Positions 1 to 15,364 of a DNA stretch of 64,000 nucleotides are shown piece by piece (positions within the stretch are counted from its first letter, which is position 1; each line of letters opens with the position of its first letter). This DNA comes from Fimbriimonadaceae bacterium (GTDB lineage Bacteria > Armatimonadota > Fimbriimonadia > Fimbriimonadales > Fimbriimonadaceae), in NCBI GenBank assembly GCA_026129685.1, contig JAHCHO010000003.1:1-64000 (forward strand), given 5' to 3'. The translations under genes were made by a program, and so were the position numbers. Below the pieces are notes generated by a model, which saw nothing but the letters and a program-made list of their open reading frames with translations, was not told the origin of the DNA and searched no databases.

Positions 1-97
1 CCCGTCACTCCCGTCACTCCCGTCACTCGCGTCACTCGTGTGTCTCGCGCCTTTCGCCGATCCCGTCACTCCCGTCATTCCCGTCAGTCGTGTGTCT
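1..97. repeat. 9-bp tandem repeat, two blocks
   Basis: The unit CCCGTCACT occurs three times at 1-27, followed by the variants CGCGTCACT (28-36) and CGTGTGTCT (37-45). After a 16-bp break the series restarts at 62-97 as CCCGTCACT, CCCGTCATT, CCCGTCAGT and CGTGTGTCT. Both blocks end in the same CGTGTGTCT variant, so the block itself looks duplicated. The array may continue left of the window. The rest of the upstream region (98-361) shows no gene I can support; it carries the leader of the next gene. Confidence 0.8.
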
Positions 98-361
98 CGC
101 TTGGAGTTCCGTCGCCGCTTCGACGCAGGGACCGAGCCCCGGGGATGCGCCGCGAGGTCCCCATCTGTATGGGGACGCGACGCGCCTCGGTCAACCGGGA
201 GCGGGCGGGAGGGCGAACCCTTTGGAAAAAAGTGTCAAGAATGTCCAACCATTGCCGCCGACGAAGCGAATAGGCGATCACGAGCGCGACAACGCGCCGG
301 GCCGGCGTCGCGGGTCCCTGAACTCTGGGGGACGCGGCCCCGGTCGAGAGAGGATAGATCG

Positions 362-868
362 ATGAAGCGAACCCTACTTTTCGCCCTCGCGGCGATTTCG
401 ACGAGCGCCTTTGCGCAGTTTGAGACGTTTTCGACCCTGAGCGGGATCACGGGCAGCCAGGAAGTCCCGGCGACGGGACACGGCGGCCTCGGGGCGGCGA
501 CCTTCACGGTGGACACGGGATCCCTGTTGCTGACGGGCTCGGTCAGCGTGGCGGGGCTTCCCTGGGGGGACGTGACGGGCTTCCACATCCACAACGCGGC
601 GGCGGGGGTCAACGGCCCGGTGGTCGTGAACTTCATGTCGAGCGGTTCGACGACGGGCACGGACCCTTGGCTGTACACGGCGAACACGACGATCACGCAG
701 TCGGTGCTGGACGCGATGCGGCTCGGCAACACCTACGTGAACGTGCATACGGCGGCGTTCCCGGGCGGGGCGATCCGGGGGCAGTTGTCGCCGGTGCCGG
801 AGCCGGCGTCGCTGGCGGCGCTCGGCGTGGGGGCGTTGGCGCTGTTGCGCCGTCGCCGTAAGGCTTAG
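362..868 (+). CDS. CHRD-domain protein with PEP-CTERM sorting tail
   Basis: A 168-aa secreted protein. Residues 1-19 form a signal peptide ending in AFA. The middle (about 24-140) fits the CHRD fold, first described in chordin, with blocks such as GSQEVPATG, GFHIHNAA, VNVHTAAFPGGAIRGQL. The tail VPEPASLAALGVGALAL followed by RRRRKA is a PEP-CTERM signal, normally recognised by an exosortase that anchors or processes the protein at the cell envelope; no exosortase lies in the window. The start at 362 was chosen because the signal peptide begins there and GAGAGGAT lies about 9 nt upstream; in-frame codons further upstream are not signal-like. The function of CHRD proteins in bacteria is not established. 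Confidence 0.85.
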   Translation: MKRTLLFALAAISTSAFAQFETFSTLSGITGSQEVPATGHGGLGAATFTVDTGSLLLTGSVSVAGLPWGDVTGFHIHNAAAGVNGPVVVNFMSSGSTTGTDPWLYTANTTITQSVLDAMRLGNTYVNVHTAAFPGGAIRGQLSPVPEPASLAALGVGALALLRRRRKA

Positions 869-893
869 AACGTTACGTCCTTGTCCACCCGCC

Positions 894-917
894 ACGGCCC
901 CGCTTCGTCGGGGCCGT
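894..917 (+). terminator. Terminator-like hairpin after the CHRD gene
   Basis: Nine-bp perfect stem ACGGCCCCG / CGGGGCCGT with loop CTTCGT, 25 nt after the stop codon. No long T tract follows, so Rho-independent action is plausible but unproven. Confidence 0.55.
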
Positions 918-969
918 TCGGCGTTACCCTTGGCCGGTTCGAGGGTAAGGTTTTGACGGGGGGGCGACG

Positions 970-1076
970 GGTTTCGCTTAAGGGGGCGCGATTCGTCGGC
1001 GAAACCTACCCGTTTCCGCTTGTTCCCGACGTCGCGCTTCGCGCTCTCGTCGAGAGCAAGACGGCGCGGGTAGGTT
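970..1076 (+). other. Array-flanking region with competing inverted repeats
   Basis: Two inverted repeats share bases. GGTTTCGC (970-977) pairs with GCGAAACC (999-1006), and AACCTACCCG (1003-1012) pairs with CGGGTAGGTT (1067-1076). Positions 1003-1006 belong to both, so only one helix can form at a time. The second helix ends 2 nt before the first CRISPR repeat. No ORF here is convincing. It may be a leader or structured array boundary; the function is unknown. Confidence 0.4.
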
Positions 1077-1077
1077 G

Positions 1078-1574
1078 TATGGGGAACGCTCCCAGAGCCT
1101 GATCTGATACACTAGGGCATTGGGAGAGCAATCATGAGCGAAGGTTGGGGAACGCTCCCAGAGCCTGATCTGATACACTGACTCGGTCACGACGGAATCA
1201 CAACCGAAGTTGGGGAACGCTCCCAGAGCCTGATCTGATACACTATCGGTATTCTCGACCGTTCGCGTTGTTCAGTTGGGGAACGCTCCCAGAGCCTGAT
1301 CTGATACACTCACGACGGCGACCGGCCAACTCGCCGTCGCGTTGGGGAACGCTCCCAGAGCCTGATCTGATACACTCAGCCGGAGCGGTGGTCCTATCAC
1401 TGGTGGGTTGGGGAACGCTCCCAGAGCCTGATCTGATACACTGGGCCGCCTTTGACGGACATGGTCTGACCGGTTGGGGAACGCTCCCAGAGCCTGATCT
1501 GATACACTTTCGGTCATCGCCTTCACGCCGCCCGCGACGTTGGGGAACGCTCCCAGAGCCTGATCTGATACACT
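1078..1574 (+). CRISPR. Type II-C CRISPR array, 8 repeats and 7 spacers
   Basis: The 36-bp repeats start at 1078, 1144, 1209, 1275, 1341, 1407, 1473 and 1539. They begin GTTGGGGAACGCTCCC and end CTGATCTGATACACT. Spacers are 30 bp, except the second (1180-1208), which is 29 bp. Repeat 1 differs at its first two bases (TA for GT); the other seven look identical. Plus-strand transcription is preferred because (i) II-C repeats typically start GTTG/GTTT and (ii) the repeat end TGATACACT resembles the extended -10 that lies in Neisseria II-C repeats. In addition, (iii) the anti-repeat at 6233-6262 pairs with this orientation. The array converges on the cas9-cas1-cas2 operon, which is on the minus strand. 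Spacer targets cannot be determined from the window. Confidence 0.98.
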
Positions 1575-1575
1575 G

Positions 1576-1609
1576 CCCCGAGTCCGGATCGAACCTTCCG
1601 GGCTCGGGG
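1576..1609. terminator. Strong hairpin between the array and cas2
   Basis: CCCCGAG (1576-1582) pairs with CTCGGGG (1603-1609), and inside it CCGGA (1584-1588) pairs with TCCGG (1597-1601). It begins one base after the last repeat and lies between two convergent units, so a two-way terminator is the simplest reading. It has no adjacent T tract; a T6 run on the plus strand lies 40 nt further on at 1650-1655. A structured leader element is the alternative. Confidence 0.5.
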
Positions 1610-1662
1610 AATCCACCCATGGGGCGGAGCCCACGGCGGTCCTCGCACGTTTTTTGGGCGGG

Positions 1663-2220
1663 TCACTCGAAGAATTCAAAGGTCGCCTGAGCTTTTTCGC
1701 CAGACCCCTTGCCGCGTTTCGGAGGGTCCGCGGCGGTAGTTGCGCGGCCCTCGTCTTCGTCGGCGTGGACTGAGGAACAGGGCGGCGACCCGGGAGCCGG
1801 ACCCGGGGGATCTCTCTCCTCCGCCAACTCCTCCAGCGCCTTGGCGGTTCGGACTTGGCCGGGGATCGGCATCCCGTCCGGGGTTTCCTCATCGAAGAAA
1901 GTGAACTGCTCGGGCGCCTCCTCGACGGAGCGGCGACGACGGGCGTGGAAGCAGACCATGCGCGCCCACTGCTTGTCGGTAAAGCGCAAGATTCGCACCT
2001 CCCCGGCGGGCGGCAGGGCATGGGTGACGCGGTTGTACAGCGAATCAGCGTTTTCCTCGGTGGCGCAGGGGCGGGCGTAGACACTGAACTGCACGCGGAA
2101 GAAGCCTTGGTCGACCAGGTCGTGGAGGAACCGCACGTAGTTTCGCCGGTGGGTCCGCGTCGTGACGGGCAGATCGAACATGACGAGCAACCACATCAGG
2201 CGAAACCCGCTGATCCTCAC
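1663..2220 (-). CDS. cas2: CRISPR-associated endonuclease Cas2 with long C-terminal tail
   Basis: A 185-aa protein starting at GTG 2220, which overlaps the cas1 stop as GTGA. Residues 1-110 form a normal Cas2 core: the first beta strand WLLVMFDLPVTT with its Asp, then FLHDLVDQGFFRVQFSVYAR, ending in EQFTFFDEE, the usual aromatic Cas2 C-terminus. About 75 further residues follow. They are low in complexity, rich in Pro, Glu and Ala, and end with a second aromatic motif (ATFEFFE). Cas2 proteins are normally about 90-110 aa, so the tail is unusual. Cas2 forms the spacer-integration complex with Cas1. It is the last gene of the operon, converging on the array. Confidence 0.93.
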   Translation of the reverse strand: MRISGFRLMWLLVMFDLPVTTRTHRRNYVRFLHDLVDQGFFRVQFSVYARPCATEENADSLYNRVTHALPPAGEVRILRFTDKQWARMVCFHARRRRSVEEAPEQFTFFDEETPDGMPIPGQVRTAKALEELAEERDPPGPAPGSPPCSSVHADEDEGRATTAADPPKRGKGSGEKAQATFEFFE

Positions 2221-3113
2221 GTTGGCTCGAAAACGGGCCTGGGAACCTCCAGCGCCTCCCCTTCGCAGACGGCCCGGCGCAAGGACGCGGCGTAGCGCTC
2301 AAGCCCGACGAAGAGGGGGAGTCGCAGGTCCGAGAAGGTGACGGTCCAACCAAGAGCGGTGATCAGCCGCTTCTTTACAGGAGGGACCAGTTCGTCGAGG
2401 GTGGGTCCGCCAGCGGCGAGGTCGAAGACCAGCCGATCCACGATCGGCCGGAGGGGTTCCATGGCATCGTCGGCGAGGCAGAGGGGGTTGAAGCGGTTGC
2501 GGTGCTGGACCCCCAGGGCGGGGTGGAGGCCGGCCCCGACAACGGCACGGGCGACGGCGGCGCGGACCACGGCGTAGCCGTAGTTCAGCATGGCGTTCAG
2601 GCCAGGCTCGTCGCGGTCCCGGAGGAAGGCCCAGCCGAACACCTGTTCGAAGGCGAGGGCGGCGGCGGCTCCCTCGACGTTGTCGGGATCGCCGCTGCGG
2701 ACCCGGGCGGCCAGTTTGCGGAGCCTCGCATCGTCCTTCCCCAGCGACGCGACGAGGTCGGCCTGGGCGAGGATTTTGTGGCGGACGACGGTCCGCCATA
2801 CGCGCTTCTTGGCGGGGAGCGACGCCTCGATCTGGCGGCGGAGGACCTCGGTGTGGGTGGAATGGCCGGCGACCGGGAGGAGGACGCCGTTGGGGAGGTG
2901 CCGGTCGTCGGCGGTCACGATCGTCACGTTTCGGCTCGCGCAGGCGGCCAGGAGGTCGTGGGTCAGGGTGATCTCCATGCCGTCGAGGACGATGACGGCG
3001 GTGTCGTCCAAGGGGACTCGGCCCCCGGCGCCCTCGGGCTTCTCGACGACGAGGCACTCGCCGGAACGGCGCAGGACGGCGGGGGCGGCGACGGAGACGA
3101 CGCGGAGGCTCAC
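2217..3113 (-). CDS. cas1: CRISPR-associated integrase Cas1 (type II)
   Basis: A 298-aa protein. It starts at GTG 3113, which overlaps the cas9 TGA as GTGA; the longer in-frame reading to 3338 is an artefact inside cas9. Features: N-terminal beta domain with VPLDDTAVIVLDGMEITL, then the helical catalytic domain with the Glu in ALAFEQVFGWAF. The His/Asp cluster LHPALGVQHRNRFNPLCLADDAMEPLRPIVD holds the metal ligands of Cas1. The length is normal for the family. With Cas2 it inserts new spacers at the array. No csn2 or cas4 is present, which with cas9-cas1-cas2 defines subtype II-C. Confidence 0.95.
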   Translation of the reverse strand: MSLRVVSVAAPAVLRRSGECLVVEKPEGAGGRVPLDDTAVIVLDGMEITLTHDLLAACASRNVTIVTADDRHLPNGVLLPVAGHSTHTEVLRRQIEASLPAKKRVWRTVVRHKILAQADLVASLGKDDARLRKLAARVRSGDPDNVEGAAAALAFEQVFGWAFLRDRDEPGLNAMLNYGYAVVRAAVARAVVGAGLHPALGVQHRNRFNPLCLADDAMEPLRPIVDRLVFDLAAGGPTLDELVPPVKKRLITALGWTVTFSDLRLPLFVGLERYAASLRRAVCEGEALEVPRPVFEPT

Positions 3114-6100
3114 CCTTGGCCCTCCGGGACTTCCCGGACGCGCCCGATCGGGTCCACTTCGACCTTCACGGCCCGGAGGGTGTTGGGCGACTTGATCAGA
3201 CGTTGTTCGTTGTCGCTCGGCGTCGCGGCATGAACCTGCCGGAGACAGATCTTGCGGTTGGTTGCTTCCAAGGCTTGAACTCGGTAGTAGGGCGGGTCCG
3301 CTTCGGCCACCATGACGGTGTCGTTCACGGCCAGCCACATCACGAAGCGCAGGCCGGGGCGAGGCGGGATTGGGTCGTACAGGGCCTTCGCCTTGCCCTG
3401 CCGGACCCGCCTGGCCGCCTTGAGCATCGACACGAAAAACCCCTCGCGCTTGAAGGTTCCATCACGGTTCTGCTTGGTCTCCTCCTCGAAGATGGCGACG
3501 TGGTGGTTGTTGCCGAGGGGGTAGTAGCGCTCGGGCCGGGCGGGGGGCACGGCGAGGAGGTCGGCCCCCGGCATGGGCTTCTGGAGCCGGGCGCGGCGAG
3601 CGACGGTCTTCCCCATCGGAAGCCCCTCCTTGAACGCGTCCTTCGGTTTGCCGCCCCGCTCCTTCAGGGTCCTCAGGGCAAGGTCGCGCAGACCGGGGTC
3701 GACGATGTCCGCGAGCGCGCTCTCGCTGAGATCGACTAGGGGTTTTCGGTAGTGAAAGACCCGGCGCTCGGCGTCGCGCAGGCCGTAAGCGGTGTCCTCG
3801 TGGAAGGCGTCGCGGATGCCGCGGGTCGTCTCGTGGCTGACGACCATGGACGCAAGGCGCGCCTTGAGGGCGTCGTGCAGCCAGGCGGGGGCGGGCGGGA
3901 CGGTGTCCTTCGAGAGGGGGGCGATCTTGCCGAAGGTCCCGTCGGCGTGCCGTTTGCGGTGGGCGGTCGCGCGCATGAAGACGGAGCGGGTGGTGAAGGC
4001 GACGGCGACGGCGTCGACGGCATGGTGGCGCAGATCGTCGCGGGTTTTCTCGGTACGGCCGTGGAGGGCTTCGAAGAGGCCCCAGTGTTCGCGCAGCATG
4101 GCGGTCGCGCCGCCCTTGGTGACCTCGATGCGACCCGCCACGGGGGCGAGGAATTCCTGCGCCTTGCGGGAGAGGTACCGCGTTTCGTTGAGCTGGCGGG
4201 CGACCATCTGGTCTTCAGGGGGCGTTTCCTGCCGGAGGAAGAGGGCCCGTTTGCGGCCGGTGCCGATGCCGCGCCACTCAAGGGCGCGGGCCTTCATGGC
4301 TTCCCACCGGGGGGTGCCGCCGAAGGCCTCATAGGGCGTGCGTTCCCCTTTCTCAAGGTTGGCGTGCGACTCGCAGAGGGTGAGGTTGTTGAACGAATCG
4401 TCGTTCGAGCGTGCGTAGGGCACGATGTGCTCGATCTGGAAGCGGGCGGTGCTCGCCAGTTCCTGGGGGATGGGGGTGTTCGTGTACGGGCAGACCCACT
4501 GGCACTGCTTGGCCAAGCGGAACCAGAAGCGGTCCGTCCGCGTCGGGTTGGCGACGCCCTGCTCGGCGAGCCATTTGTCGGCTTCGGCGTTCTCCTTCGC
4601 GAGTTGCTTCTGGGCTCTTTCCAGCCCTTCGCGTTCATTCTTGGTCAGGCTGAGGTCGCGAGCGAGTTCGATCCGGACGATCGAAGGTTTGCCGTACGTC
4701 GCGATGAGGGCGTTGACGACGCGTCTCAGCTGGCCCAGGGCCTTTCGGACGCGCGGGTTGGTGATTTCGGCGCGGGTGGGGGCACGGGGGACCCGATCGA
4801 GGCTCTCAATCTCCTTTGGCGTGTAGCCCGCTCGGACCTGGGCCTCGTACATTCGTTCGATGCCCTTGTCCTCGTCGAGAGCGCGGAGGATGCGACGCAT
4901 CGCGCGCGAACTGAGGGCGGCGGTGCCGTCGTCCAGCTCGACCTTGGCGATCGCATAGGCCTGGGGCACGTCCAGTTTGTAGGCGTTCCTCAGGGTCTGG
5001 TAGAGCTTGCCTTGGTCGGGGCTGGTGAGGATCGTCTCGACGAGGTTTTCGCGAGCGGCCTCGTCGAGTCGTTTCCAGAGGTCGGGTGCGGCCGAATGGA
5101 GCTTGGCGGTGGTCGCGTTGCCCTTGAGCTTGTCTTTGGCCCGGGTCAGGTTGAAGTCCGTGCCCTTGGGCAACCGAAGGAGCTTTCGAACCGCTTCCCA
5201 GGAGACTTCTCGCCTGGTTTCCAGGTGATCGGCGAGTACCCGCCTTTCGTCAGGGCGCAGGGGACGGTGCTCCTCGTCGTGAGGTTCGCGCACGCGCAGG
5301 TTGACGATGTCCTGCCAGTAGCGGTAGCGCTGGGCGACCAACTGGGCGCGATCGGCCCGTTTTCGCCGAGGCTCGAGCGAGCAGTAACCCTTGAGGCGCT
5401 TCTGCGGCTTGAGGGGGCGCTGGTGGAAGATGGCTTGGTGCAGTCGGGCCCGGAGTTCGTGGTCGAGCAAGTCGGGCCGGTGGCGGGCTTGGCACTCCCA
5501 GATTCTCTCGAACTCGTCCTCGTACATGTCGCGGTGCGCGTGCCGTCCTCTTACCGGACGTCCGGCCTCGAGTTCGGAGAGGAAGTACTGGGCGAGCGTT
5601 CGGCCCGCCAGGGCGCCGCGCAGTTCGGCGATCGCCTCGAGCACTTTGCCCTCCTCTTTCTTCCGCTCGGCGTCATCGGGCGACCTTTCGTCGGCTTCGT
5701 CGACGACTCCCGGATTCGTCTCGTCCGCTCTCAGGAGTGCGGCAACCTCGGGATTCGACGCGATGCCGGCGAACTGGGCGCCTCGGTTCGATCGGAAGCC
5801 TCTCCTTCGGGCCAGGTGGTAGAGGGCACGACCGAGTTCATGCGGTTCGAGGAGTTCGTCGACGGCCCTGGCTCGCAAGCGGTAGGGCACCCATTGGTCT
5901 GACTCCGAGTCGGCAAAGGGGCGATCCGATGGGGTCGCCAGCCCCGCCTTGAAGAGGACGTTGTAGAGGACATCGAGCCGCTGCCGTCTTCGACGCAGGC
6001 TCTTGCGGAGACCGCGCTTGGTGCGGCGCTTCTTGTTCTTCAGCGTGTTGGCCTTGGGTTCCACGACCTCCTCGAAGTGGCGAACTCCGAGGTCAACGAG

Positions 6101-6193
6101 TTCGGAGGGCACGCCGTCCGCGTCGCCATGGAACAGGGCCCAACCGATGGAGGAGGTGCCGAGGTCAAGTCCGAGGATAAGATTGGCATTCAT
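3110..6193 (-). CDS. cas9: CRISPR effector nuclease Cas9, compact type II-C
   Basis: A 1027-aa RNA-guided DNA endonuclease, small for Cas9. RuvC-I: LGLDLGTSSIGWAL with D10. Arg-rich bridge helix at about 52-75 (KKRRTKRG, RRRRQRL). RuvC-II: SIVRIELARDL with E509. HNH domain: FQIEHIVPYARSNDDSFNN with H589 and N603, then N612 in ANLEKG; the residue before H589 is Glu where SpCas9 has Asp. RuvC-III: LRHHAVDAVAVAF with H724 and D727. All expected catalytic positions are present, so both strands should be cut. The REC region (about 80-490) is short, as in II-C. The ATG at 6193 has AAAGGAG 6 nt upstream. The cognate tracrRNA is divergent at 6233. The PAM cannot be read from the window. Confidence 0.97.
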   Translation of the reverse strand: MNANLILGLDLGTSSIGWALFHGDADGVPSELVDLGVRHFEEVVEPKANTLKNKKRRTKRGLRKSLRRRRQRLDVLYNVLFKAGLATPSDRPFADSESDQWVPYRLRARAVDELLEPHELGRALYHLARRRGFRSNRGAQFAGIASNPEVAALLRADETNPGVVDEADERSPDDAERKKEEGKVLEAIAELRGALAGRTLAQYFLSELEAGRPVRGRHAHRDMYEDEFERIWECQARHRPDLLDHELRARLHQAIFHQRPLKPQKRLKGYCSLEPRRKRADRAQLVAQRYRYWQDIVNLRVREPHDEEHRPLRPDERRVLADHLETRREVSWEAVRKLLRLPKGTDFNLTRAKDKLKGNATTAKLHSAAPDLWKRLDEAARENLVETILTSPDQGKLYQTLRNAYKLDVPQAYAIAKVELDDGTAALSSRAMRRILRALDEDKGIERMYEAQVRAGYTPKEIESLDRVPRAPTRAEITNPRVRKALGQLRRVVNALIATYGKPSIVRIELARDLSLTKNEREGLERAQKQLAKENAEADKWLAEQGVANPTRTDRFWFRLAKQCQWVCPYTNTPIPQELASTARFQIEHIVPYARSNDDSFNNLTLCESHANLEKGERTPYEAFGGTPRWEAMKARALEWRGIGTGRKRALFLRQETPPEDQMVARQLNETRYLSRKAQEFLAPVAGRIEVTKGGATAMLREHWGLFEALHGRTEKTRDDLRHHAVDAVAVAFTTRSVFMRATAHRKRHADGTFGKIAPLSKDTVPPAPAWLHDALKARLASMVVSHETTRGIRDAFHEDTAYGLRDAERRVFHYRKPLVDLSESALADIVDPGLRDLALRTLKERGGKPKDAFKEGLPMGKTVARRARLQKPMPGADLLAVPPARPERYYPLGNNHHVAIFEEETKQNRDGTFKREGFFVSMLKAARRVRQGKAKALYDPIPPRPGLRFVMWLAVNDTVMVAEADPPYYRVQALEATNRKICLRQVHAATPSDNEQRLIKSPNTLRAVKVEVDPIGRVREVPEGQG

Positions 6194-6196
6194 GGG

Positions 6197-6227
6197 TTGC
6201 TCCTTTGTGCTTTCCCGGTGTATGATA
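6197..6227 (+). promoter_or_regulatory. Divergent cas9/tracrRNA promoter with shared -10
   Basis: Plus strand: TTGCTC (6197-6202), 18 bp, TATGAT (6221-6226), predicting tracrRNA initiation near 6233, exactly at the anti-repeat. Minus strand: the overlapping TATCAT (complement of 6222-6227) predicts a cas9 start near 6215, leaving a 22-nt leader that contains the AAAGGAG ribosome-binding site. I see no good -35 for the cas9 direction. Confidence 0.6.
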
Positions 6228-6232
6228 GCGTC

Positions 6233-6379
6233 GTATCAGATCAGGCCTGCGGCTTCCTCAACAAGGTCTCTTTTGAGACCGCAGGATAAATGACCTACGG
6301 GTCAACGTTAGCGGGTCCGCGAGGGTCCGTCCTAGAGATCAGGGTTCGGAGCAGCGGTTCCGGACCCTGACTCTCTTTT
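6233..6379 (+). ncRNA. tracrRNA candidate
   Basis: The anti-repeat lies at 6233-6262. GTATCAGATCAGGC (6233-6246) is the exact complement of repeat positions 20-33, and TTCCTCAAC (6254-6262) pairs with repeat positions 1-9 with one G-U. An internal loop separates them (repeat 10-19 against 6247-6253). Downstream hairpins are GGTCTC-TTTT-GAGACC (6265-6280), then TGACC-TACG-GGTCA (6291-6304) with a UNCG-type tetraloop, then the terminator at 6341-6368. The predicted RNA is about 147 nt. tracrRNA pairs with crRNA to load Cas9 and, where present, RNase III trims the duplex. Boundaries are inferred from promoter and terminator signals. Confidence 0.85.
6341..6379 (+). terminator. Intrinsic terminator of the tracrRNA
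   Basis: Arms 6341-6350 and 6359-6368 form a 10-bp stem with one T-G pair (AGGGTTCGGA / TCCGGACCCT), with an 8-nt loop, followed by the T-rich GACTCTCTTTT. Confidence 0.7.
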
Positions 6380-6464
6380 GGCTTGCGGGCGACGGCATCC
6401 CTTCCACCGTTCGTGACACGGGATCGTTGGCGAAGGGCGGCTGAGGTAAAGTCCGGGGCGAGCG

Positions 6465-7526
6465 ATGACCCGATTCGCCTTCGTCGTCCACCCCTTGGAA
6501 GCGCGAGACGCGGCGCGGAAGTACCCGCTGTTCCGTTACCTTCCGGACGGGTGGGTGGAGGCTTTGCTTCGGTTCAAGAAGCCGGGGGTGGTGAGCCACA
6601 TCACGGGGGTGCGTTCGATCACGGGGGCGGAGACGGAGGGTTGGTTCATCGGTTGCCCGCTCACGTCGCACCAGTTGGTGACGATGCCTCCGGAGGCGGT
6701 CTATCCGATTCTCGTGGAGTGCGCGCGCCTCGGGGCGGAGCAAGGGGCGGACCTGATCGGGCTGGGGGCGTTCACGAGCGTGGCGGGGGACGGGGGCGTG
6801 ACGGTGGCGCACCAGGCGCCGATCGCGGTGACGACGGGCAACTCGTACACGGTGGCGACGGCGATCGAGGGGACGTTGAAGGCTTGCGACCTGGTGGGCA
6901 TTCGGCTGGACGACTCGGTGTTGGCGGTGGTGGGGGCGACGGGTTCGATCGGGCGGACGTGTGCGACGATGATGGCGCCCTCGTTTCGGCGCACGATTCT
7001 GGTGGGGCGGGACGAGGAACGGACGCGGGAGGCGGCGCGGGAGCTTCCTCGCAGCGAGGCGACGACGCGGGTGCCGGACATCACGGTGGCGGACGTGGTG
7101 GTGACGGTGACGAGCGCGGACACTCCGGTGATCGAGCCGGGGCATCTTCGGCCGGGGGCGATCGTGTGCGACGTGGCGCGTCCTCGGGACGTTTCGGTCA
7201 AGGTGGCGAAGGAGCGTCACGACGTCCTGGTGATCGAGGGCGGGGTGGTGAAGGTGCCGGGGGAGGTGGATTTCGGCTTCGACTTCGGGTTTCCGGCGGG
7301 CACGGCGTACGCTTGCATGGCGGAGACGATGGTTTTGGCGCTGGAGGGGCGGGCGGATTCGTTCACTTTGGGAAAGAGCGTGTCGCTGACGCAGGTTCAG
7401 GAGATCACGCGCCTCGCGCAGCGGCACGGTTTCGGGCTGGCGGGTTTCCGGTCCTTCGAGCGGGCGGTGGAGCCGGAAGCGATCGAGCGGGCGCGCCGGG
7501 CGCGGGCTTCGATGGCGTCGGCTTGA
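6465..7526 (+). CDS. Long-chain acyl-ACP reductase-like oxidoreductase
   Basis: A 353-aa protein resembling cyanobacterial acyl-[acyl-carrier-protein] reductase (AAR), which reduces fatty acyl-ACP to fatty aldehyde. Visible hallmarks in family order: GLGAFTSVAGDGG (about 99-111), TTGNSYTVATAIEG, the nucleotide-binding loop VVGATGSIGRTC (155-166), the block VIEGGVVKVPGEVDFGF, and C284 in YACMAETMVLALEG. That Cys aligns with the active-site Cys in the ACFAEAM block of AAR. No aldehyde decarbonylase neighbour is present. A -10-like TAAAGT lies at 6447-6452. Substrate is inferred; a shikimate-dehydrogenase-like enzyme of other function is possible. Confidence 0.72.
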   Translation: MTRFAFVVHPLEARDAARKYPLFRYLPDGWVEALLRFKKPGVVSHITGVRSITGAETEGWFIGCPLTSHQLVTMPPEAVYPILVECARLGAEQGADLIGLGAFTSVAGDGGVTVAHQAPIAVTTGNSYTVATAIEGTLKACDLVGIRLDDSVLAVVGATGSIGRTCATMMAPSFRRTILVGRDEERTREAARELPRSEATTRVPDITVADVVVTVTSADTPVIEPGHLRPGAIVCDVARPRDVSVKVAKERHDVLVIEGGVVKVPGEVDFGFDFGFPAGTAYACMAETMVLALEGRADSFTLGKSVSLTQVQEITRLAQRHGFGLAGFRSFERAVEPEAIERARRARASMASA

Positions 7527-7549
7527 TCGCAGATCGGCGCGGATTGCCC

Positions 7550-7578
7550 TTGGCTTTCGACCCGGAACGTGCTATAAT
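7550..7578 (+). promoter_or_regulatory. Housekeeping promoter of the RRM gene
   Basis: TTGGCT (7550-7555), 17 bp, then a perfect TATAAT (7573-7578) preceded by TGC. The predicted start near 7585 leaves a leader of about 113 nt, long for this window and typical of cold-shock-type RNA-binding protein genes. Confidence 0.75.
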
Positions 7579-7697
7579 CCGATTGTTACGTTTCGGATGT
7601 CTTGGATTTCGTATGGAGCTTCGCCCTTGGGGCCGGTTCTCGAATCGAATTCTCCTGCCTTCAGAACCGGAACAGAAAGCCTTAGGAGGCTAGTATC

Positions 7698-8090
7698 ATG
7701 GCGACGACTCTATACGTGGGCAACCTGCCCTATTCCGTTTCGGAAGCTCAGCTTACCGAATTCTTCTCCGCTTACGGCGCGACGAACGCGCGCATCGTCG
7801 AGGGCCGCGGTTTCGGCTTTGTCGACATCGAGGGCAGCCAGCTCGAGGCGGCCATCGCCGACAAGCACAACAGCCAGCTCGGCGGACGCAACCTGACCGT
7901 GAACGAAGCCCGACCGCGCGAGAGCCGGCCGAGCGGCGGCGGCGGCGGTAGCTACGGCGGCGGCGGTGGCGGCGGTCGCAGCGGCGGCGGCGGCTACGGC
8001 GGCGGCGGTGGCGGCGGTCGGAGCAGCGGAGGCGGCGGTGGCCGCGGCGGCTTCGGCGGTGGCAACCGCGGCGGCGGCGGCCGCTGGTAA
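7698..8090 (+). CDS. Glycine-rich RRM RNA-binding protein
   Basis: A 130-aa protein. One RNA-recognition motif (1-76) has RNP2 LYVGNL and RNP1 RGFGFVDI. The tail (about 80-130) is almost only Gly with Arg, Ser and Tyr, as in cyanobacterial Rbp proteins that bind mRNA and rise in the cold. RNP1 begins RGFGFVDI where the classical motif is [RK]GFGFV, so the binding surface is intact. AGGAGG lies 10 nt upstream of the ATG. It is monocistronic: own promoter at 7550, strong terminator at 8124. The Gly tail probably mediates low-affinity assembly (inference). Confidence 0.92.
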   Translation: MATTLYVGNLPYSVSEAQLTEFFSAYGATNARIVEGRGFGFVDIEGSQLEAAIADKHNSQLGGRNLTVNEARPRESRPSGGGGGSYGGGGGGGRSGGGGYGGGGGGGRSSGGGGGRGGFGGGNRGGGGRW

Positions 8091-8123
8091 GAACGAATCC
8101 GGCCCTCTAGGGGTCCCTGACAG

Positions 8124-8161
8124 GACGGCCTCGGCGTTTCGCGCCGGGGCCGTCGCATTTT
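8124..8161 (+). terminator. Intrinsic terminator of the RRM gene
   Basis: GACGGCC / GGCCGTC continues through a T-G pair into CGGCG / CGCCG around a TTTCG loop (8124-8154), then GCATTTT. Confidence 0.8.
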
Positions 8162-8202
8162 CGGCTCATGACTTGCGGGGGGAGTTTGGCCTCGATTACT
8201 GC

Positions 8203-8208
8203 CACAAT
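8203..8208 (+). promoter_or_regulatory. -10 box of hisC, near-leaderless
   Basis: CACAAT ends 9 nt before the hisC ATG. No Shine-Dalgarno sequence is present in that gap. Confidence 0.4.
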
Positions 8209-8217
8209 GAAGTCGCG

Positions 8218-9330
8218 ATGGCCATCAACGTCCGTCCCGCCGTCACCCGAATGACGCCCTACTCGCCGGGGAAACCGGTCGAGGAGGTTCGACGCGAACT
8301 GGGGTTGGAGCGCGTCGTCAAGCTCGCGAGTAACGAGAACCCGCTGGGTCCGAGCCCGAAGGCGATCGAAGCGGTGGAGCGCGCCGCCGAGACGATGCAC
8401 CTTTATCCGGACGCCTCGGCCCACGACCTGAACGCGGCGCTGGGATACCACCTGCGGCTGGCCCCGGAACGGATCGTGATCGGCAACGGAAGCGACGAGT
8501 TGATCCACCTGCTCGGGCTGGTGCTGCTGGAAAACGAAAGCGACGAACTGGTGATGGGCGACCCGTCCTTCGTGCGGTACGAGGCGTCCGCCCAGCTCGC
8601 GAACGCACGACTGGTCAAGGTGCCGCTGGACGAGGACTTCCGCCACGATCTGCCGGCGATGGCGAAAGCGGTGACGGAGCGGACGCGCCTGGTGTACATC
8701 GCGAACCCCAACAACCCGACGGGGACGATCGTGCGGCGCGACGAGTTCGAGCGCTTCCTGGGCGACCTGCCGACGGACGTCCTGGTCGTGCTGGACGAGG
8801 CCTATTACGAATACGCGGCGGGGGCCGACGGCTACCCGAGCAGCCTCGACTACGTTCACGCCAACCGCAACGTGTTCGGCATGCGCACGTTCAGCAAGGC
8901 CTACGGTCTCGCAGGGATACGGGTCGGTTACGGTTTTGGGCCGCCGGAGGTCGTCGACGCGATCCACCGCGCGAGGGAGCCGTTCAACGTGAACTCGCTG
9001 GCCCAGGCGGCGGCGATCGCGGCCTTGGGGGATCGCGAGCACCTGGCGCGCACGGTGGCGACCAACCGAGCGGGTCTGGAGCGGCTCGGCCTACTGATGC
9101 GCTCGCTGGGGGCGAGCGTCGTCGAGAGCTACGGCAACTTCGCGTTCGTCGACCTGGGTCGGCCGGCGGAACCGGTGTTCGAGGCGCTGTTGCGCAAGGG
9201 GGTGATCGTCCGCGCGGGACGGCACATCGGCCACCCGGATTGCCTGCGGGTCACGGTCGGGACCGATGAGGAACTGGACTTTTTCGAGGAGGCGATCCGG
9301 GAGGCGCTCGCCCCTTCGGTGTTCGTATGA
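8218..9330 (+). CDS. hisC: Histidinol-phosphate aminotransferase
   Basis: A 370-aa fold-type I PLP enzyme that converts histidinol phosphate and 2-oxoglutarate to imidazole acetol-phosphate and glutamate in histidine synthesis. Evidence: N-terminal ASNENPLGPSP, the substrate/PLP motifs YIANPNNPTGT and LDEAYYEY, the Schiff-base Lys in TFSKAYGLAGIRVGYG, and the C-terminal RVTVGT. The length is typical. The ATG at 8218 is preferred over the in-frame extension to 7966, which runs through the Gly-rich gene and the terminator. The stop overlaps queD by 4 nt (ATGA). Other class I/II aminotransferases are possible but the motif set fits HisC best. Confidence 0.9.
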   Translation: MAINVRPAVTRMTPYSPGKPVEEVRRELGLERVVKLASNENPLGPSPKAIEAVERAAETMHLYPDASAHDLNAALGYHLRLAPERIVIGNGSDELIHLLGLVLLENESDELVMGDPSFVRYEASAQLANARLVKVPLDEDFRHDLPAMAKAVTERTRLVYIANPNNPTGTIVRRDEFERFLGDLPTDVLVVLDEAYYEYAAGADGYPSSLDYVHANRNVFGMRTFSKAYGLAGIRVGYGFGPPEVVDAIHRAREPFNVNSLAQAAAIAALGDREHLARTVATNRAGLERLGLLMRSLGASVVESYGNFAFVDLGRPAEPVFEALLRKGVIVRAGRHIGHPDCLRVTVGTDEELDFFEEAIREALAPSVFV

Positions 9331-9803
9331 GCGGGCCGATCTATCGCGTTTGCCGGCGATTCGTGGTCGAGAGCGGCCACATGCTGAGCCGCCACCCGGA
9401 AGCGTGCCGGTTCCCCCACGGCCATACGCGCACGATCGAGGTGGTCGTGGCCAGCGACGAACTCGACGATCTTGGCATGGTGGTGGACTTCAAAGCACTT
9501 AAGCTCGCTTTGGAAGGGCACCTAGACCGCTACGACCACGCGATCGCGGTGAACAAGACGGACCCGTTTCTTAAGAGTTTACGGTCGGCGTTCCCCGAAA
9601 GCGCCTTCGTCGTCTTCGAGGGAGAGCCTACGACGGAAGCGATCGCGAAAGAAATCTTCGATCACGCTTCGCGCGTTCTGGCGGACGGGTTCGAGGCAGC
9701 GTCGGGGTCCGGGACCCCTTATCGGATACCGCCAGGGCGATGCCGCCTCGAGCGGGTTCGGGTCTGGGAGACGCCGTCCAGTTGGGCGGAAGTCGCGCGG
9801 TAG
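9327..9803 (+). CDS. queD: 6-pyruvoyl-tetrahydropterin synthase / QueD family
   Basis: A 158-aa protein of the T-fold PTPS/QueD family. Zn ligands are visible in ESGHMLSRHP and FPHGHTRT. A Cys lies between them in PEACRFPHGH, close to the catalytic Cys of QueD, which makes 6-carboxytetrahydropterin for queuosine. The C-terminal half holds FEGEPTTEAIAKEIF, where family members have PT(S/T)EN; Glu is kept and Asn is Ala. It is translationally coupled to hisC through ATGA. The link with hisC is positional only. A 6-pyruvoyl-tetrahydropterin synthase role cannot be excluded. Confidence 0.82.
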   Translation: MSGPIYRVCRRFVVESGHMLSRHPEACRFPHGHTRTIEVVVASDELDDLGMVVDFKALKLALEGHLDRYDHAIAVNKTDPFLKSLRSAFPESAFVVFEGEPTTEAIAKEIFDHASRVLADGFEAASGSGTPYRIPPGRCRLERVRVWETPSSWAEVAR

Positions 9804-9805
9804 GA

Positions 9806-9835
9806 CGCGACCCGGGCCGATCGGCCCAGGTCGCG
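9806..9835 (+). terminator. Terminator-like hairpin after queD
   Basis: CGCGACC / GGTCGCG encloses a self-complementary GGGCCGATCGGCCC. It starts 3 nt after the queD stop. No T tract follows. Confidence 0.5.
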
Positions 9836-9868
9836 AGACGACCCGGGCGGACGACCCCTAGAAGAGAC

Positions 9869-10360
9869 ATGAACACCGCGATCCATCCCGAAGCGCGCAT
9901 CGGACACGTCCACCTGAAGGTGGCGGACCTGGAGCGGGCGCTCGCGTTCTACACCGGCGTCCTCGGATTTGAACTGACCCAGCGGTACGGCCGAGGGGCG
10001 GCGTTCGTGTCGGCGGGCGGGTACCACCATCACATCGGTCTGAACACGTGGGACAGCCTTGGCGGGTCGCCGCCGCCGCGCGGGAGCACCGGGCTGTACC
10101 ACGTCGCCATCCTCTTCCCTTCGCGGAAGGCCTTGGCGGAGGCCCTGGTGCGCCTGGATCGGGCGGGCGTCGCCCTCGACGGGGCCGCCGACCACGGGGT
10201 GAGCGAAGCGCTCTACCTGCGCGACCCGGATGGGAACGGCCTCGAGTTGTACTGGGATCGACCGGCCGAGGCGTGGCCGCACGACGCGAAGGGCGAACTG
10301 GCGATGGTCACGGAGCCGCTGGACTTGGACGGCTTGCGGCGGGCGGCGACGAACGCCTAA
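9869..10360 (+). CDS. VOC (glyoxalase/dioxygenase) family protein
   Basis: A 163-aa vicinal-oxygen-chelate protein. First beta-alpha-beta-beta-beta module: IGHVHLKVADLERALAFYTGVLGFEL, with a metal-type His, then YHHHIGLNTW. Second module: GLYHVAILFPSRKALAEAL and the ligand-bearing end SEALYLRDPDGNGLELYWDRP with the closing Glu. The pattern resembles the N-terminal half of CatE-like catechol 2,3-dioxygenases, but the substrate cannot be told from sequence. Start at ATG 9869, with GAAGAGA 3-9 nt upstream. Its stop overlaps the end of the convergent HD-GYP gene by 4 nt. Confidence 0.85.
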   Translation: MNTAIHPEARIGHVHLKVADLERALAFYTGVLGFELTQRYGRGAAFVSAGGYHHHIGLNTWDSLGGSPPPRGSTGLYHVAILFPSRKALAEALVRLDRAGVALDGAADHGVSEALYLRDPDGNGLELYWDRPAEAWPHDAKGELAMVTEPLDLDGLRRAATNA

Positions 10361-11442
10361 GCCGCGCGTCGCTCGCCGAAGGGTTCGGGGATGCGCTCGT
10401 CTTCCAGTTCGAGTTTGGACCAGTCGAGCCGCAGGAAGGCCTCGACGATGTTGGGGTCGAACTGGTGGCCGCTCTGTTTCTGGATTTCGAGCATCGCTCT
10501 GGACAAGGGCCAAGGGTGCTTGTAGGGGCGACGATGGGTCAGGGCGTCGAACACGTCGGCGAGGGCCACGATCCTCCCCGACATGGGGATCTCCTCGCCC
10601 TTGAGGCCGGTCGGGTATCCCGCCCCGTCCCATCGCTCGTGGTGCGTCAAGGCGATCTCCTCGGCGAGGCGGAGGAGCGACACCCGGCTGTTGCCCAGGA
10701 TCTGCGATCCGACCCAGGTGTGGGCCTTCACGTTTTCGAACTCATAGGCGGTGAGTTTGCCGGGCTTGCGCAAGATGCCGTCCGGCACGCCGATTTTGCC
10801 GAGATCGTGGAGCAGGGCGGCCATGCCGATGTGGCGCGCGTAGACCGGGTCGAGCCCGGCCGCCTTGGCGATTTCCTCGCTCAGGAAGCCCACGCGGCGG
10901 GTGTGCTCGCCGGTGTCGTCGTCGCGAAACTCGGCGGCGAGGGCTAGGCGCTCGAGGATTTCGCGCTGGGTGTCCTCCAACTCTTGGGTGCGCTCGAGGA
11001 CCCTACGCTCGAGTTCCTCGCGTTGCCATTTGTTCTCGCAGTACAGGCGGCGCGTGTGCAGCAGGTTGCCGACGCGGAGAAGGGTTTCGGTGAAGTCGTC
11101 GCTCTTGGTGACGTAGTCCATCGCGCCGCACTCGAGGGCGCGGGTGCGTACGTGCTGGCCGCCGTTGCCGGTGAGCACGAGGATGGGCAGAAACTCGTCA
11201 CGCGAAATGCGGTCGCGAAGGGCGCGGATGACCTCGAAGCCGTCCATGTACGACATGGCCAGGTCCACGGCAACAAGGTCGGGGCGGTACGCCTCGAACG
11301 TCGCCAAGGCTTGGCGGGGGTCGGCCACGTGAGCCGTTTCGGTATAGCCGGCGAACACCAGCTCGCGACGAAGGAGGAGGTAAAAGTCCTCTTCGTCGTC
11401 AATGACCAGTATCCGCGGTTGGAACGCGTCGCGTGTTTCCAT
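10357..11442 (-). CDS. Response regulator with HD-GYP cyclic-di-GMP phosphodiesterase domain
   Basis: 361 aa from the ATG at 11442 (an in-frame start at 11469 would add 9 residues). Receiver domain: ILVIDDEEDFY acidic pair, phospho-acceptor Asp in VAVDLAMSYMDGFE, Thr in LVLTGNGG and Lys in YVTKSDD. A coiled linker rich in Glu and Arg follows (RRVLERTQELEDTQREILERL). The HD-GYP domain has GEHTRRVG, HDLGKIGVPD and the full HHERWDGAGYPTGLKGEEIP motif, so c-di-GMP hydrolysis is expected. No cognate kinase is adjacent. It is RpfG-like in architecture. It converges with the VOC gene. Confidence 0.93.
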   Translation of the reverse strand: METRDAFQPRILVIDDEEDFYLLLRRELVFAGYTETAHVADPRQALATFEAYRPDLVAVDLAMSYMDGFEVIRALRDRISRDEFLPILVLTGNGGQHVRTRALECGAMDYVTKSDDFTETLLRVGNLLHTRRLYCENKWQREELERRVLERTQELEDTQREILERLALAAEFRDDDTGEHTRRVGFLSEEIAKAAGLDPVYARHIGMAALLHDLGKIGVPDGILRKPGKLTAYEFENVKAHTWVGSQILGNSRVSLLRLAEEIALTHHERWDGAGYPTGLKGEEIPMSGRIVALADVFDALTHRRPYKHPWPLSRAMLEIQKQSGHQFDPNIVEAFLRLDWSKLELEDERIPEPFGERRAA

Positions 11443-11600
11443 CGGGGTTCCGAACGGTCGGCTTCCCAATCATCGGGTCGTCAGCCGGAGTTCCTCAAGG
11501 CCCCGGGGATGCGGAACCGTACAAGTTTGGGGGCCGAAGCGGGTCCAGCGACGCCTGGTGGCGCGCTGAACCCGTTCCACTAAGTTGGTCACCAGGTTGC

Positions 11601-14501
11601 CTAGGGCGCACCGGATTGGCCGAACGATCCGCGCAGGATTACGAAGTCGGCGACGTTGACCGATCCGCTTCCGTTGAGGTCGGCGTTCGGGTTCCATCCA
11701 GCCCCGCCGGTGGAACTGCCGAAAGCGGCGCGCAACTGGAGGAAGTCGGCGATGTTCACGGTGTTGTCGCCATTGACGTCGCCATTCACGAGCGACAACG
11801 AGACGGTCGCCCCGGAGCCGCTGACGCTCACGTTCGCCGACTTGGCGCGGAGCCAGTGCGAGCTCTTGATCGTCACATCGTAGGTTCCGTTCAGGCTCGT
11901 CACGACGCCATAGGCGCCGCCGGAGGCGAGGGTCGTGTCGTAGGTCTCGAGGGGAACGGTCGAACCCGGGCTACGGATTTCGACGCGGACGGGCGTGCCG
12001 GCGACGGTCCCGGCGAAGTTCTGGAGGGTGACGTTGCCGGAGACGGTGCGGGTGGTGGCGAGTTGGACGCGCCAGATTCCGCGACCCCATGTCGCGGCGA
12101 ACAGATAGCCGGCGCTCACGCCCACCTCGTTCACCTGCACGTTCGGCAGGCCCAGGGGGGCGGTCACGTTGGTCCAGGTCGAACCGGCGTTCGTGGTCAT
12201 GAAGACCCCGAGGTCGGTGCCGACGTACCAGGTGTTCTGGGGGTCGGCGGGATCCCGGGCGAGCGAGTTGGCCGGGACGTCGGGCAGTCCGGTGGCGCCG
12301 CTACCGGAACGATCGGACCAAACCGGGGTCGCGGCGAGGGTGTTCGCGCAACGGAAGACGTGTCCGCTTCCGGTGCCGGAGAGGAGGACGAGGAGGTCGC
12401 TCTTGTTGGTCGGGTTCACGTTGAGGAAGGTGATCGTCCGATCCGGCAGGGCGGGACTCCCGCCGTCGATCGGGGTCCACGACGTCCCGCCGTTCGCCGT
12501 CATCTGGAGGACACCGTTGGCCGTTCCGGCGTAGATGCGATCGGAGTCCCCGGGCGCGACGGCAAGGCAGTTGATAACGTCGGAGCCGGTCGCGACCTCG
12601 ATCCCGCCGACGCGGGGCGTCCAACTCAGGGTCGACGAGTCGAACCGCCAAAGGTAGTTCGCGCCAGCGTAGAGGAGGTTCGGGTTGTTCGGGTCGAGAA
12701 CGATCGGGGCGATGAAGGCGGCGCGGTCGGTGCCGTGACTCAGGGGTGGGCCGATGTAGGCGCTCGTGGACCACTCGTTGGTGGTGAGGAAGGTGGCGAG
12801 TCCTTGGGCGGTGCAGTATTGGATGGCCGGGTTCGCGGGGTTGATCGCGCACCAGCCGCCGTCGCCCCCGCCCCGGTTGAGCCAGTTGGCGAGGTCGCCG
12901 GTCGAGACGGGGGTGGCGTTGTCCTGGGTGCCACCGAGCATCTTGTCGGGATTCGTCGGATGGAAGGCGGCCCGGTAGAACTGGGTGGTGTAGAGCCCGG
13001 CGTTCAGGGGGGTCCACGTGAATGTCCCGCCGCCGGGGTTGTAGACGAGGCGGTAGGCTCCCCCGTCCATGCCGACGAGGCTTTCGTTGGCGTTCGACGG
13101 GTTGACGGTCAGGCTGTGCTGGTCGTTGTGGATCACCGCGTCGCCGGTGTAGGTCGGGCCGCCGATGGAGTTCCAGTTGGCTCCCCCGTTGATCGAGACG
13201 GCGACATCGATAAGGCCGACGTAGACGACGTCCTGGTTGTTGGCGACCGAAGTCTCGATGAAGACGTCGTAAAAGGACTGCGACCAATTGTAGGTCGCGC
13301 CCATGCCGGCATTGCCATGGGGGAAGTCGTTGGTCGAGTCGCCCCAGGTCAAGCCGCCGTTCGTCGTCTTCTGGACCTTGCCGGGCGAACTGATCGAGGA
13401 GTCGACGACGTAGGCGGTCAAGGGGTCGCGCTTCGAACCGGCGACGCGGGTCAAGGCGCTGCCGCTGCCGGTTCCGACGTAGCCGGAGTTGACCCAGGTC
13501 GCTCCCCGGTTGGTGGAGAGGAGGACGCGCCCACGATAGCTGTCGGTGGCGTAGTAGAGCCGGTTGTTGAGGCCGTCCTTCGCGGCGTAGTCAAGGCTCG
13601 CGAAGAGGCCCCATCCTTCGAGGGGGGTCACGTCGCTCCAGTTGCCACCGCCGTTGGTGGTACGGACGAGTTTGCCCCACCAAGAACTCCCTCGCGAAAG
13701 CGAACAGACGATGGTGCTCGGGGATTCGGGGTCCACGATGATATCGCTGACGGCAAAGCCGTCGAACAAGGAGTCCGAAATCTTGGTCCAATTCGCGCCT
13801 CCATCGGTGGAACGCATAAGGCCGTTCGTGTAACCGACCATGCCGTCAAAGTCGCCGGTACCGGCATAGATCGTGTTCGGGGCGGAGGCCGGGATGGCGA
13901 GGCAACTCACGTGAAGAAGGGGCCAAGCGGTATCGGTGAGTGGGGTCCAGGTCGCGCCGCCGTCGGTGGTCTTGTGGACTCCGCCGGAGGCTCCCGCGAC
14001 GTAGACGATCTGCGAGTTCGTCGGATGGTAGGCGGCGGCGTTGATGCGTCCGGAGAGCGGGGCGATGCCGTAGTACGTGCGGTAGGGGACCTGGAGGTTC
14101 TTCGGCCCCACATACGACCAAGTGCCGGTGGGGGCGAGGGTTCGCCGATCGCCGCGGAGACCGATTTGGCCGACGGGCATCTTGTCGCGGTGGTCGGCGC
14201 CGCGGCGCCACGCGTCCCAGTCCACGGTGTCGTTCGGGTAGGCGCGTTGCCGGAGGTAATAGAGGAGCGACTTGAGGTAGTCCACCCCCGGTTTCTCCTT
14301 GCGCTCGCGAGGGTCCACCGCAGCGTCCTCTTCCTCGCCGCCCTCCAGTTTGTCGATGTGCGCGGTCAAGCTCTTGACGGACCGGAAGACCGGTTCGGGG
14401 TTCGGGCGCGAATTCTGAGCCGACAGTCCGGAGGCCGCGCCGACGATCAGGACCAGCGCGAGAATGCGAGCAGAGAGCGGAGCGAGAGATCGCGGACGCA
14501 T
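11601..14501 (-). CDS. Secreted BNR/VPS10-type beta-propeller with dockerin-like tail
   Basis: A 966-aa protein. Residues 1-28 form a signal peptide ending GLSAQ. From about 125 to 800 there are many sialidase/sortilin-type Asp-box repeats (TTDGGATWT, STDGGANWT, TTNGGGNWS, TTNGGLTWG), the pattern of a large propeller. A carboxypeptidase-like beta-sandwich follows (VSGNVTLQNFAG). Then come two dockerin-type calcium loops: DVNGDNTVNIADFLQLRAAFG and DLNGSGSVNVADFVILRGSFG. Ligand and enzymatic activity are unknown; the Asp boxes alone do not imply sialidase. A TATACT -10 lies 6 nt upstream of the ATG, so the message is probably leaderless. Confidence 0.85.
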   Translation of the reverse strand: MRPRSLAPLSARILALVLIVGAASGLSAQNSRPNPEPVFRSVKSLTAHIDKLEGGEEEDAAVDPRERKEKPGVDYLKSLLYYLRQRAYPNDTVDWDAWRRGADHRDKMPVGQIGLRGDRRTLAPTGTWSYVGPKNLQVPYRTYYGIAPLSGRINAAAYHPTNSQIVYVAGASGGVHKTTDGGATWTPLTDTAWPLLHVSCLAIPASAPNTIYAGTGDFDGMVGYTNGLMRSTDGGANWTKISDSLFDGFAVSDIIVDPESPSTIVCSLSRGSSWWGKLVRTTNGGGNWSDVTPLEGWGLFASLDYAAKDGLNNRLYYATDSYRGRVLLSTNRGATWVNSGYVGTGSGSALTRVAGSKRDPLTAYVVDSSISSPGKVQKTTNGGLTWGDSTNDFPHGNAGMGATYNWSQSFYDVFIETSVANNQDVVYVGLIDVAVSINGGANWNSIGGPTYTGDAVIHNDQHSLTVNPSNANESLVGMDGGAYRLVYNPGGGTFTWTPLNAGLYTTQFYRAAFHPTNPDKMLGGTQDNATPVSTGDLANWLNRGGGDGGWCAINPANPAIQYCTAQGLATFLTTNEWSTSAYIGPPLSHGTDRAAFIAPIVLDPNNPNLLYAGANYLWRFDSSTLSWTPRVGGIEVATGSDVINCLAVAPGDSDRIYAGTANGVLQMTANGGTSWTPIDGGSPALPDRTITFLNVNPTNKSDLLVLLSGTGSGHVFRCANTLAATPVWSDRSGSGATGLPDVPANSLARDPADPQNTWYVGTDLGVFMTTNAGSTWTNVTAPLGLPNVQVNEVGVSAGYLFAATWGRGIWRVQLATTRTVSGNVTLQNFAGTVAGTPVRVEIRSPGSTVPLETYDTTLASGGAYGVVTSLNGTYDVTIKSSHWLRAKSANVSVSGSGATVSLSLVNGDVNGDNTVNIADFLQLRAAFGSSTGGAGWNPNADLNGSGSVNVADFVILRGSFGQSGAP

Positions 14502-14507
14502 GGGGCG

Positions 14508-14513
14508 AGTATA
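14508..14513 (-). promoter_or_regulatory. -10 box of the dockerin propeller gene
   Basis: TATACT on the minus strand ends 6 nt before the ATG. TTGCGG lies 16 bp upstream as a weak -35. Confidence 0.5.
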
Positions 14514-14589
14514 CGACCGAACTCGCGATCCGCAAAGGAGATTCTCGTCCCCTGAAACTTACCGGGCGGGGACCTCGTTTTGAACCCTC

Positions 14590-15357
14590 GTGAAACCGCT
14601 CGCCTCGCCCCTTGCCGCTCTCGTTCTGATAGCCGCCGTCGCCACCGTCCGCGCGGAGGTCCAAACCAAGGCGCTCGACTACAAGGTCGGGGACGCGACG
14701 TACGAGGGGTACCTGGCCTGGAACGACGCTTTCAAGACGCCGCGACCGGCGGTGCTCGTGGTCCACGACTGGAACGGGCTCGACGACTATGAGAAGTTGC
14801 GCGCTCGGATGCTTGCCGAACTCGGCTATGTGGCCCTGGCGGTGGACGTTTACGGGAAGGGCGTGCGACCGACCAACACGCAGGAGTCCAGCGCGGAGGC
14901 GCGGAAGCTGTACGGCAACCTGCCCGAGTTCCGGGCGCGGCTCCAGGCGGCGGTCACGGTGGCGCGGTCCTTGCCGGAGGTGGACAAGACGAAGGTCGCG
15001 GCGATCGGCTACTGCTTCGGCGGGGCGGGCGTCCTCGAACTCGCCCGGTCAGGCTCGGACGTGCAGGGGGTGGTGAGTTTCCACGGCTCGCTGGGCACCT
15101 CGATGCCGGCGAAGGAGGGCGAGGTCAAGACGAAGGTGATGGTGTGCCACGCGGCGCAGGACCCGGCGGCGCCGCGGCCCACCCTGGTGGCGTTTCTCGA
15201 CGAGATGCGGGACGCGAAGGTGGACTACCAGATGGTGATGTACAACGTCGCCGCCCACCCTTGGACGGTGATCGGCGGCCCGCAGTACCATCCGGAAGCA
15301 GACCGACGCTCCTGGGCGGCGATGCGGGCGTTTCTCGACGAAGTGTTCAAGTCCTGA
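14590..15357 (+). CDS. Secreted dienelactone hydrolase family protein
   Basis: A 255-aa alpha/beta hydrolase starting at GTG. Residues 1-21 form a signal peptide (LAALVLIAAVATVRA). The nucleophile elbow GYCFGG carries the Cys typical of dienelactone hydrolases. The acid is probably the Asp in CHAAQDPAAP, and the His is in NVAAHPWT. An oxyanion-region motif VHDWNGLDDYEKLRA precedes them. The family hydrolyses dienelactones in chloroaromatic degradation, but most secreted relatives have no assigned substrate. It converges on the aldehyde dehydrogenase with 7 bp between stops. Confidence 0.88.
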   Translation: MKPLASPLAALVLIAAVATVRAEVQTKALDYKVGDATYEGYLAWNDAFKTPRPAVLVVHDWNGLDDYEKLRARMLAELGYVALAVDVYGKGVRPTNTQESSAEARKLYGNLPEFRARLQAAVTVARSLPEVDKTKVAAIGYCFGGAGVLELARSGSDVQGVVSFHGSLGTSMPAKEGEVKTKVMVCHAAQDPAAPRPTLVAFLDEMRDAKVDYQMVMYNVAAHPWTVIGGPQYHPEADRRSWAAMRAFLDEVFKS

Positions 15358-15364
15358 GGCTAAT

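Follow-up and report, generated by a model that had tools for sequence, protein, structure and literature searches.

Very few tracrRNA models are held in Rfam, where they form one family (PMC9067536). The model CRISPRCas_38 represents a type II-C tracrRNA and is found almost only in Bacteroidetes (PMC9067536). In the single guide RNA of Neisseria meningitidis (Nme), as printed, the anti-repeat contains the motif CGTTGC, and GCAACG follows stem-loop 1 (PMC6594998). In the omega-RNA of IsrB a pseudoknot is closed by pairing between a guide-adaptor element and the nexus region; this adaptor pseudoknot joins two hairpin loops and is degenerated in Cas9 tracrRNAs (PMC9581776).

The stretch of DNA analysed here (the window, 64,000 nt) carries at 6233-6379 of the plus strand a well-defined tracrRNA of ordinary function, which belongs to a type II-C-like locus in Armatimonadota. 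The probability that this is a tracrRNA gene divergent from cas9, starting at the anti-repeat, ending at 6339-6379 and serving guide loading into Cas9, is put at about 96%. As in the type II-C tracrRNA of Nme, two anti-repeat arms surround an internal loop, stem-loop 1 follows directly, and further stem-loops come after it; unlike the Nme RNA, this one has a different sequence, an extra GCGA hairpin and a length of 147 nt. In gene position and repeat match the locus also resembles the type II-C loci of CRISPRCas_38, with its tracrRNA within ~100 bases upstream of cas9 and an anti-repeat that matches the local repeats, but the host is a member of Armatimonadota and not of Bacteroidetes. Window positions 1-16000 gave no Rfam match at E-values up to 1, so none was obtained for the tracrRNA. 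The features of the locus are as follows.

1078-1574, plus strand: CRISPR array with eight 36-nt repeats, of which the first is degenerate, and spacers of 29-30 nt
1663-2220, minus strand: cas2, by family match, with a long C-terminal extension
2217-3104, minus strand: type II cas1, start approximate, open frame extending to 3338
3110-6193, minus strand: cas9, 1027 aa, whose catalytic motifs of RuvC and HNH could be aligned
6197-6202, plus strand: weak -35-like TTGCTC, TTGACA-like in many relatives
6221-6226, plus strand: -10-like TATGAT, ending 6 nt before the anti-repeat, for a start at about 6232-6234
6233-6379, plus strand: tracrRNA, predicted primary transcript of 147 nt
6233-6246, plus strand: first arm of the anti-repeat, forming 14 bp with positions 20-33 of the repeat
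6247-6253, plus strand: anti-repeat internal loop CTGCGGC, whose CTGC can pair with 6281-6284
6254-6262, plus strand: second arm of the anti-repeat, forming 9 bp with positions 1-9 of the repeat
6265-6280, plus strand: stem-loop 1, GGTCTC-TTTT-GAGACC, 6 bp, covarying in relatives
6281-6285, plus strand: GCAGG directly after stem-loop 1, complementary to CCTGC at 6246-6250, conserved and partly covarying
6291-6304, plus strand: stem-loop 2, 5 bp, C(UACG)G loop
6312-6329, plus strand: stem-loop 3, 7 bp, GCGA loop; its GGGTCC...GGGTCC also occurs in relatives L009 and L036
6339-6379, plus strand: intrinsic terminator, 14-bp stem at 6339-6370 followed by a T-rich tail

The cas9, cas1 and cas2 genes are placed between the array and the tracrRNA. 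The order array-cas2-cas1-cas9 leaves no room for another cas gene, and the operon itself is therefore without csn2 or cas4. The Cas9 protein matches TIGR01865 (8e-168), and its LDLGT, IELARD, EHIVPY and HHAVDA motifs were aligned with those of the Nme protein and GeoCas9, which are among the nearest solved Cas9 proteins. From the operon content and the size and motifs of Cas9 (~1000 aa, RuvC, HNH), compared with its nearest solved relatives, the locus is type II-C-like. The C-terminal extension of Cas2 (1663-1960) comprises ~80 aa past the family match, which covers residues 9-106 of 185.

The array repeat (36 nt) is GTTGGGGAACGCTCCCAGAGCCTGATCTGATACACT. The predicted direction of array transcription, deduced from the repeat strand that pairs with the tracrRNA, would be opposite to that of the cas operon. 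The degenerate repeat is the first in transcription order, at the cas-distal end, both here (1078-1113) and in five relatives (L044, L045, L050, L051 and L053), among which L053 alone shows a change in its last repeat as well. Such a position of the degenerate repeat suggests that new spacers enter the array at the cas-proximal end. The 3' end of the repeat (for example 1105-1113) reads TGATACACT, which is extended -10-like, and relatives have TACAAT, TACACT or TATAAT; such ends would be expected if each repeat carried a crRNA promoter. Of seven spacers whose 20-mers were compared with viral contigs, spacer 5 (1377-1406) was the only one matched: its last 20 nt occur exactly in two viral contigs (L086 and L087), while the remaining 10 are unmatched, and no PAM can be deduced because the match covers 20 nt without those 10. 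In L087 the matched frame reads GGPITGGTPYLVGERGP, which resembles a phage tail tape-measure motif.

Co-folding of the repeat with 6233-6379 gave a two-segment duplex of -47.2 kcal/mol. The preliminary description had deduced 14 contiguous pairs between repeat positions 20-33 and 6233-6246 and 9 pairs between positions 1-9 and 6254-6262, and both segments were recovered, the second with one G-U pair. The internal loop that it placed between them is present but is not empty, since optional pairs can form inside it: CTG at 6247-6249 can pair with CAG at repeat positions 16-18. The 14-nt core of the anti-repeat has nine exact copies in the 3.94 Mb genome, eight in the array repeats and one, inverted, at 6233-6246; the same exact search found no second repeat-like sequence near 6233. 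Pairing had also been described as more extensive than the minimum Cas9 needs. This is true of the minimum, but the reach is not unusual, as relatives pair just as far, and far-reaching repeat:anti-repeat pairing is the rule in related loci and this locus no exception.

A match to the window Cas9 is encoded in 24 of the 291 genomes of the phylum, the window's own included. Wherever the array could be read, the best anti-repeat was located upstream of cas9 and, with few exceptions, on the strand opposite to it; 17 loci of Armatimonadota had such an upstream anti-repeat. Across these 17, anti-repeats paired with their own repeats at a mean of -51.3 kcal/mol, compared with -27.1 kcal/mol for the repeats of other loci. 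This coevolution of anti-repeats with their own repeats settles the identity of the region as a tracrRNA, as originally proposed. The region adjoins an intact cas9-cas1-cas2-array locus, lies beside the cas9 of a type II system, and holds, outside the array, an anti-repeat complementary to the local repeat. Promoter and terminator elements accompany the anti-repeat on its own strand; the terminator is strong, and the promoter is weak here and conserved in relatives. Observed directly are the sequence, its pairing, the conservation of position and orientation, and the coevolution of anti-repeat and repeat. The same-genus relative L009 (G140:C51) has an intact tracrRNA and a cas9 match in two overlapping frames, and its cas9 is therefore frameshifted or misassembled. 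In L010 (Lentisphaerota) and related loci from genomes of that phylum (L067-L079), pairing of the anti-repeat near cas9 is often confined to the initial ~18-19 nt of the repeat, a layout unlike the one here.

Transcription was predicted in the preliminary description to begin at about 6233, exactly where the anti-repeat begins. The promoter of the window, TTGCTC-18-TATGAT, matches the consensus at only 8/12 positions, below the scan threshold, and a sigma70 promoter scan of 5900-6700 listed no promoter. Support for this start came mainly from relatives, because the same spacing between -10 box and anti-repeat recurs there. The -35/-10 comparison covered 20 loci, namely the 17 above and three that lack a readable array. 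Their best -35/-10 pairs averaged 9.15 of 12, whereas no shuffled set had a mean above 7.3. In 18 of these 20 loci a gap of 4-8 nt separates the end of a sigma70-like -10 box from the start of the anti-repeat. This spacing points to a start at the anti-repeat throughout the phylum, and a transcript starting there would be a phylum-wide design, well supported by the comparison.

The weak -35/-10 elements of the window could instead indicate a start upstream of 6233 and a transcript with extra 5' sequence. A long tracrRNA form of S. pyogenes regulates cas9. We regard an upstream start as improbable here, because the cas9 start codon is only 39 bp away from 6233, no second repeat-like sequence lies near that position, and the spacing of the -10 box is conserved as described. 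The region could also be a degenerate repeat or array remnant within a minus-strand cas9 leader, with no tracrRNA role, given that the minus strand of the anti-repeat resembles a repeat and that the cas9 promoter must be close by, but this is most improbable, as promoter, hairpins and terminator lie on the plus strand and are conserved in relatives with compensatory changes. With a tracrRNA start at the anti-repeat, the divergent promoters of cas9 and the tracrRNA must overlap, because the interval 6193-6233 leaves them only those 39 bp. Read on the minus strand, the -10 sequence TATGATA is TATCATA, and the two promoters might share it.

The fold of the tracrRNA was more stable than all of 200 dinucleotide shuffles (z = -4.3). 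Of the hairpins proposed earlier, the 6-bp one after the anti-repeat was found at 6265-6280 and the one with a C(UACG)G tetraloop at 6291-6304, and a further hairpin, which had been missed, was identified at 6312-6329 (7 bp, GCGA loop), making four with the terminator. The terminator is strong and has the T-rich end ascribed to it, but its stem is of 14 bp (6339-6370) and not 10 bp, with further outer AGAGA/TCTCT pairing. Adjoining the tracrRNA is a reductase-like gene (6465-7526) with a Shikimate_DH domain above the Pfam cut-off; its similarity to PigE and to acyl-ACP reductase is below the NCBIfam cut-offs.

An additional helix can be drawn between CCTGC (6246-6250, plus strand), which lies partly inside the anti-repeat internal loop and partly at its edge, and the GCAGG that follows stem-loop 1. 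In a 13-locus alignment this helix and stem-loop 1 together showed 94% standard pairs, compared with 33-42% when slid by 1-3 columns, and pairs changed on both sides numbered two in the extra helix and three in stem-loop 1. Divergent loci carry the replacement pairs AGCTTG/CAAGCT (L046) and ACCCT/AGGGT (L042), whereas L045 and L050 do not fit and L043 in part does not. The strength of the permutation test depends on segmentation. With automatic segments, including three loci outside the design, 1601 of 100000 permutations reached the observed value (p = 0.016); with hand-set segments 2 of 100000 did, a result that is biased because the sequences had been seen beforehand. Loci of another phylum and of plasmids were considered as a further test and set aside, because most of these systems have another anti-repeat layout.

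For the anti-repeat strand of the extra helix, pairing with the crRNA repeat is predicted as well (mean probability >0.5 in 16 of the 17 loci), so the helix would either form in free tracrRNA and be displaced by the crRNA or form a pseudoknot after loading. It is conceivable, though on balance doubtful, that the covarying CCTGC:GCAGG helix is a real and undescribed type II-C tracrRNA element of this branch, acting as a guide pseudoknot or as a lock on free tracrRNA opened by the crRNA. The literature searched (tracrRNA pseudoknots and type II-C systems, in papers outside subscription) yielded no description of it, which is weak evidence of novelty. The candidate helix links the loop of the anti-repeat with the sequence flanking stem-loop 1, a likeness of arrangement to the IsrB adaptor pseudoknot, and it differs from the two joined hairpin loops of IsrB. 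The Nme motifs CGTTGC and GCAACG, between which CGTT:AACG pairing would be possible, stand at the same two places as CCTGC and GCAGG here; by this likeness, drawn from the printed sequence alone, the extra helix may extend beyond Armatimonadota and may already be visible in Nme structures.

Transcription, exact ends, processing and activity of the tracrRNA are predicted from its sequence. The sigma70-type promoter at 6197-6226 would start the RNA at the first anti-repeat base and the terminator at 6339-6379 would end it. The anti-repeat would then anneal to the repeat of a pre-crRNA made from the plus strand of the array, RNase III would probably trim the duplex, by analogy with other type II systems, and stem-loops 1-3 would hold the tracrRNA:crRNA duplex in Cas9.

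With the tracrRNA, the system of a compact Cas9 (1027 aa) from a little-studied phylum is complete, and its guide RNA parts, their borders and the Cas9 are defined well enough for testing. If the extra helix is real, it should be retained in single guide RNAs designed for such Cas9 proteins, and it may account for the tracrRNA staying quiet until the crRNA arrives.
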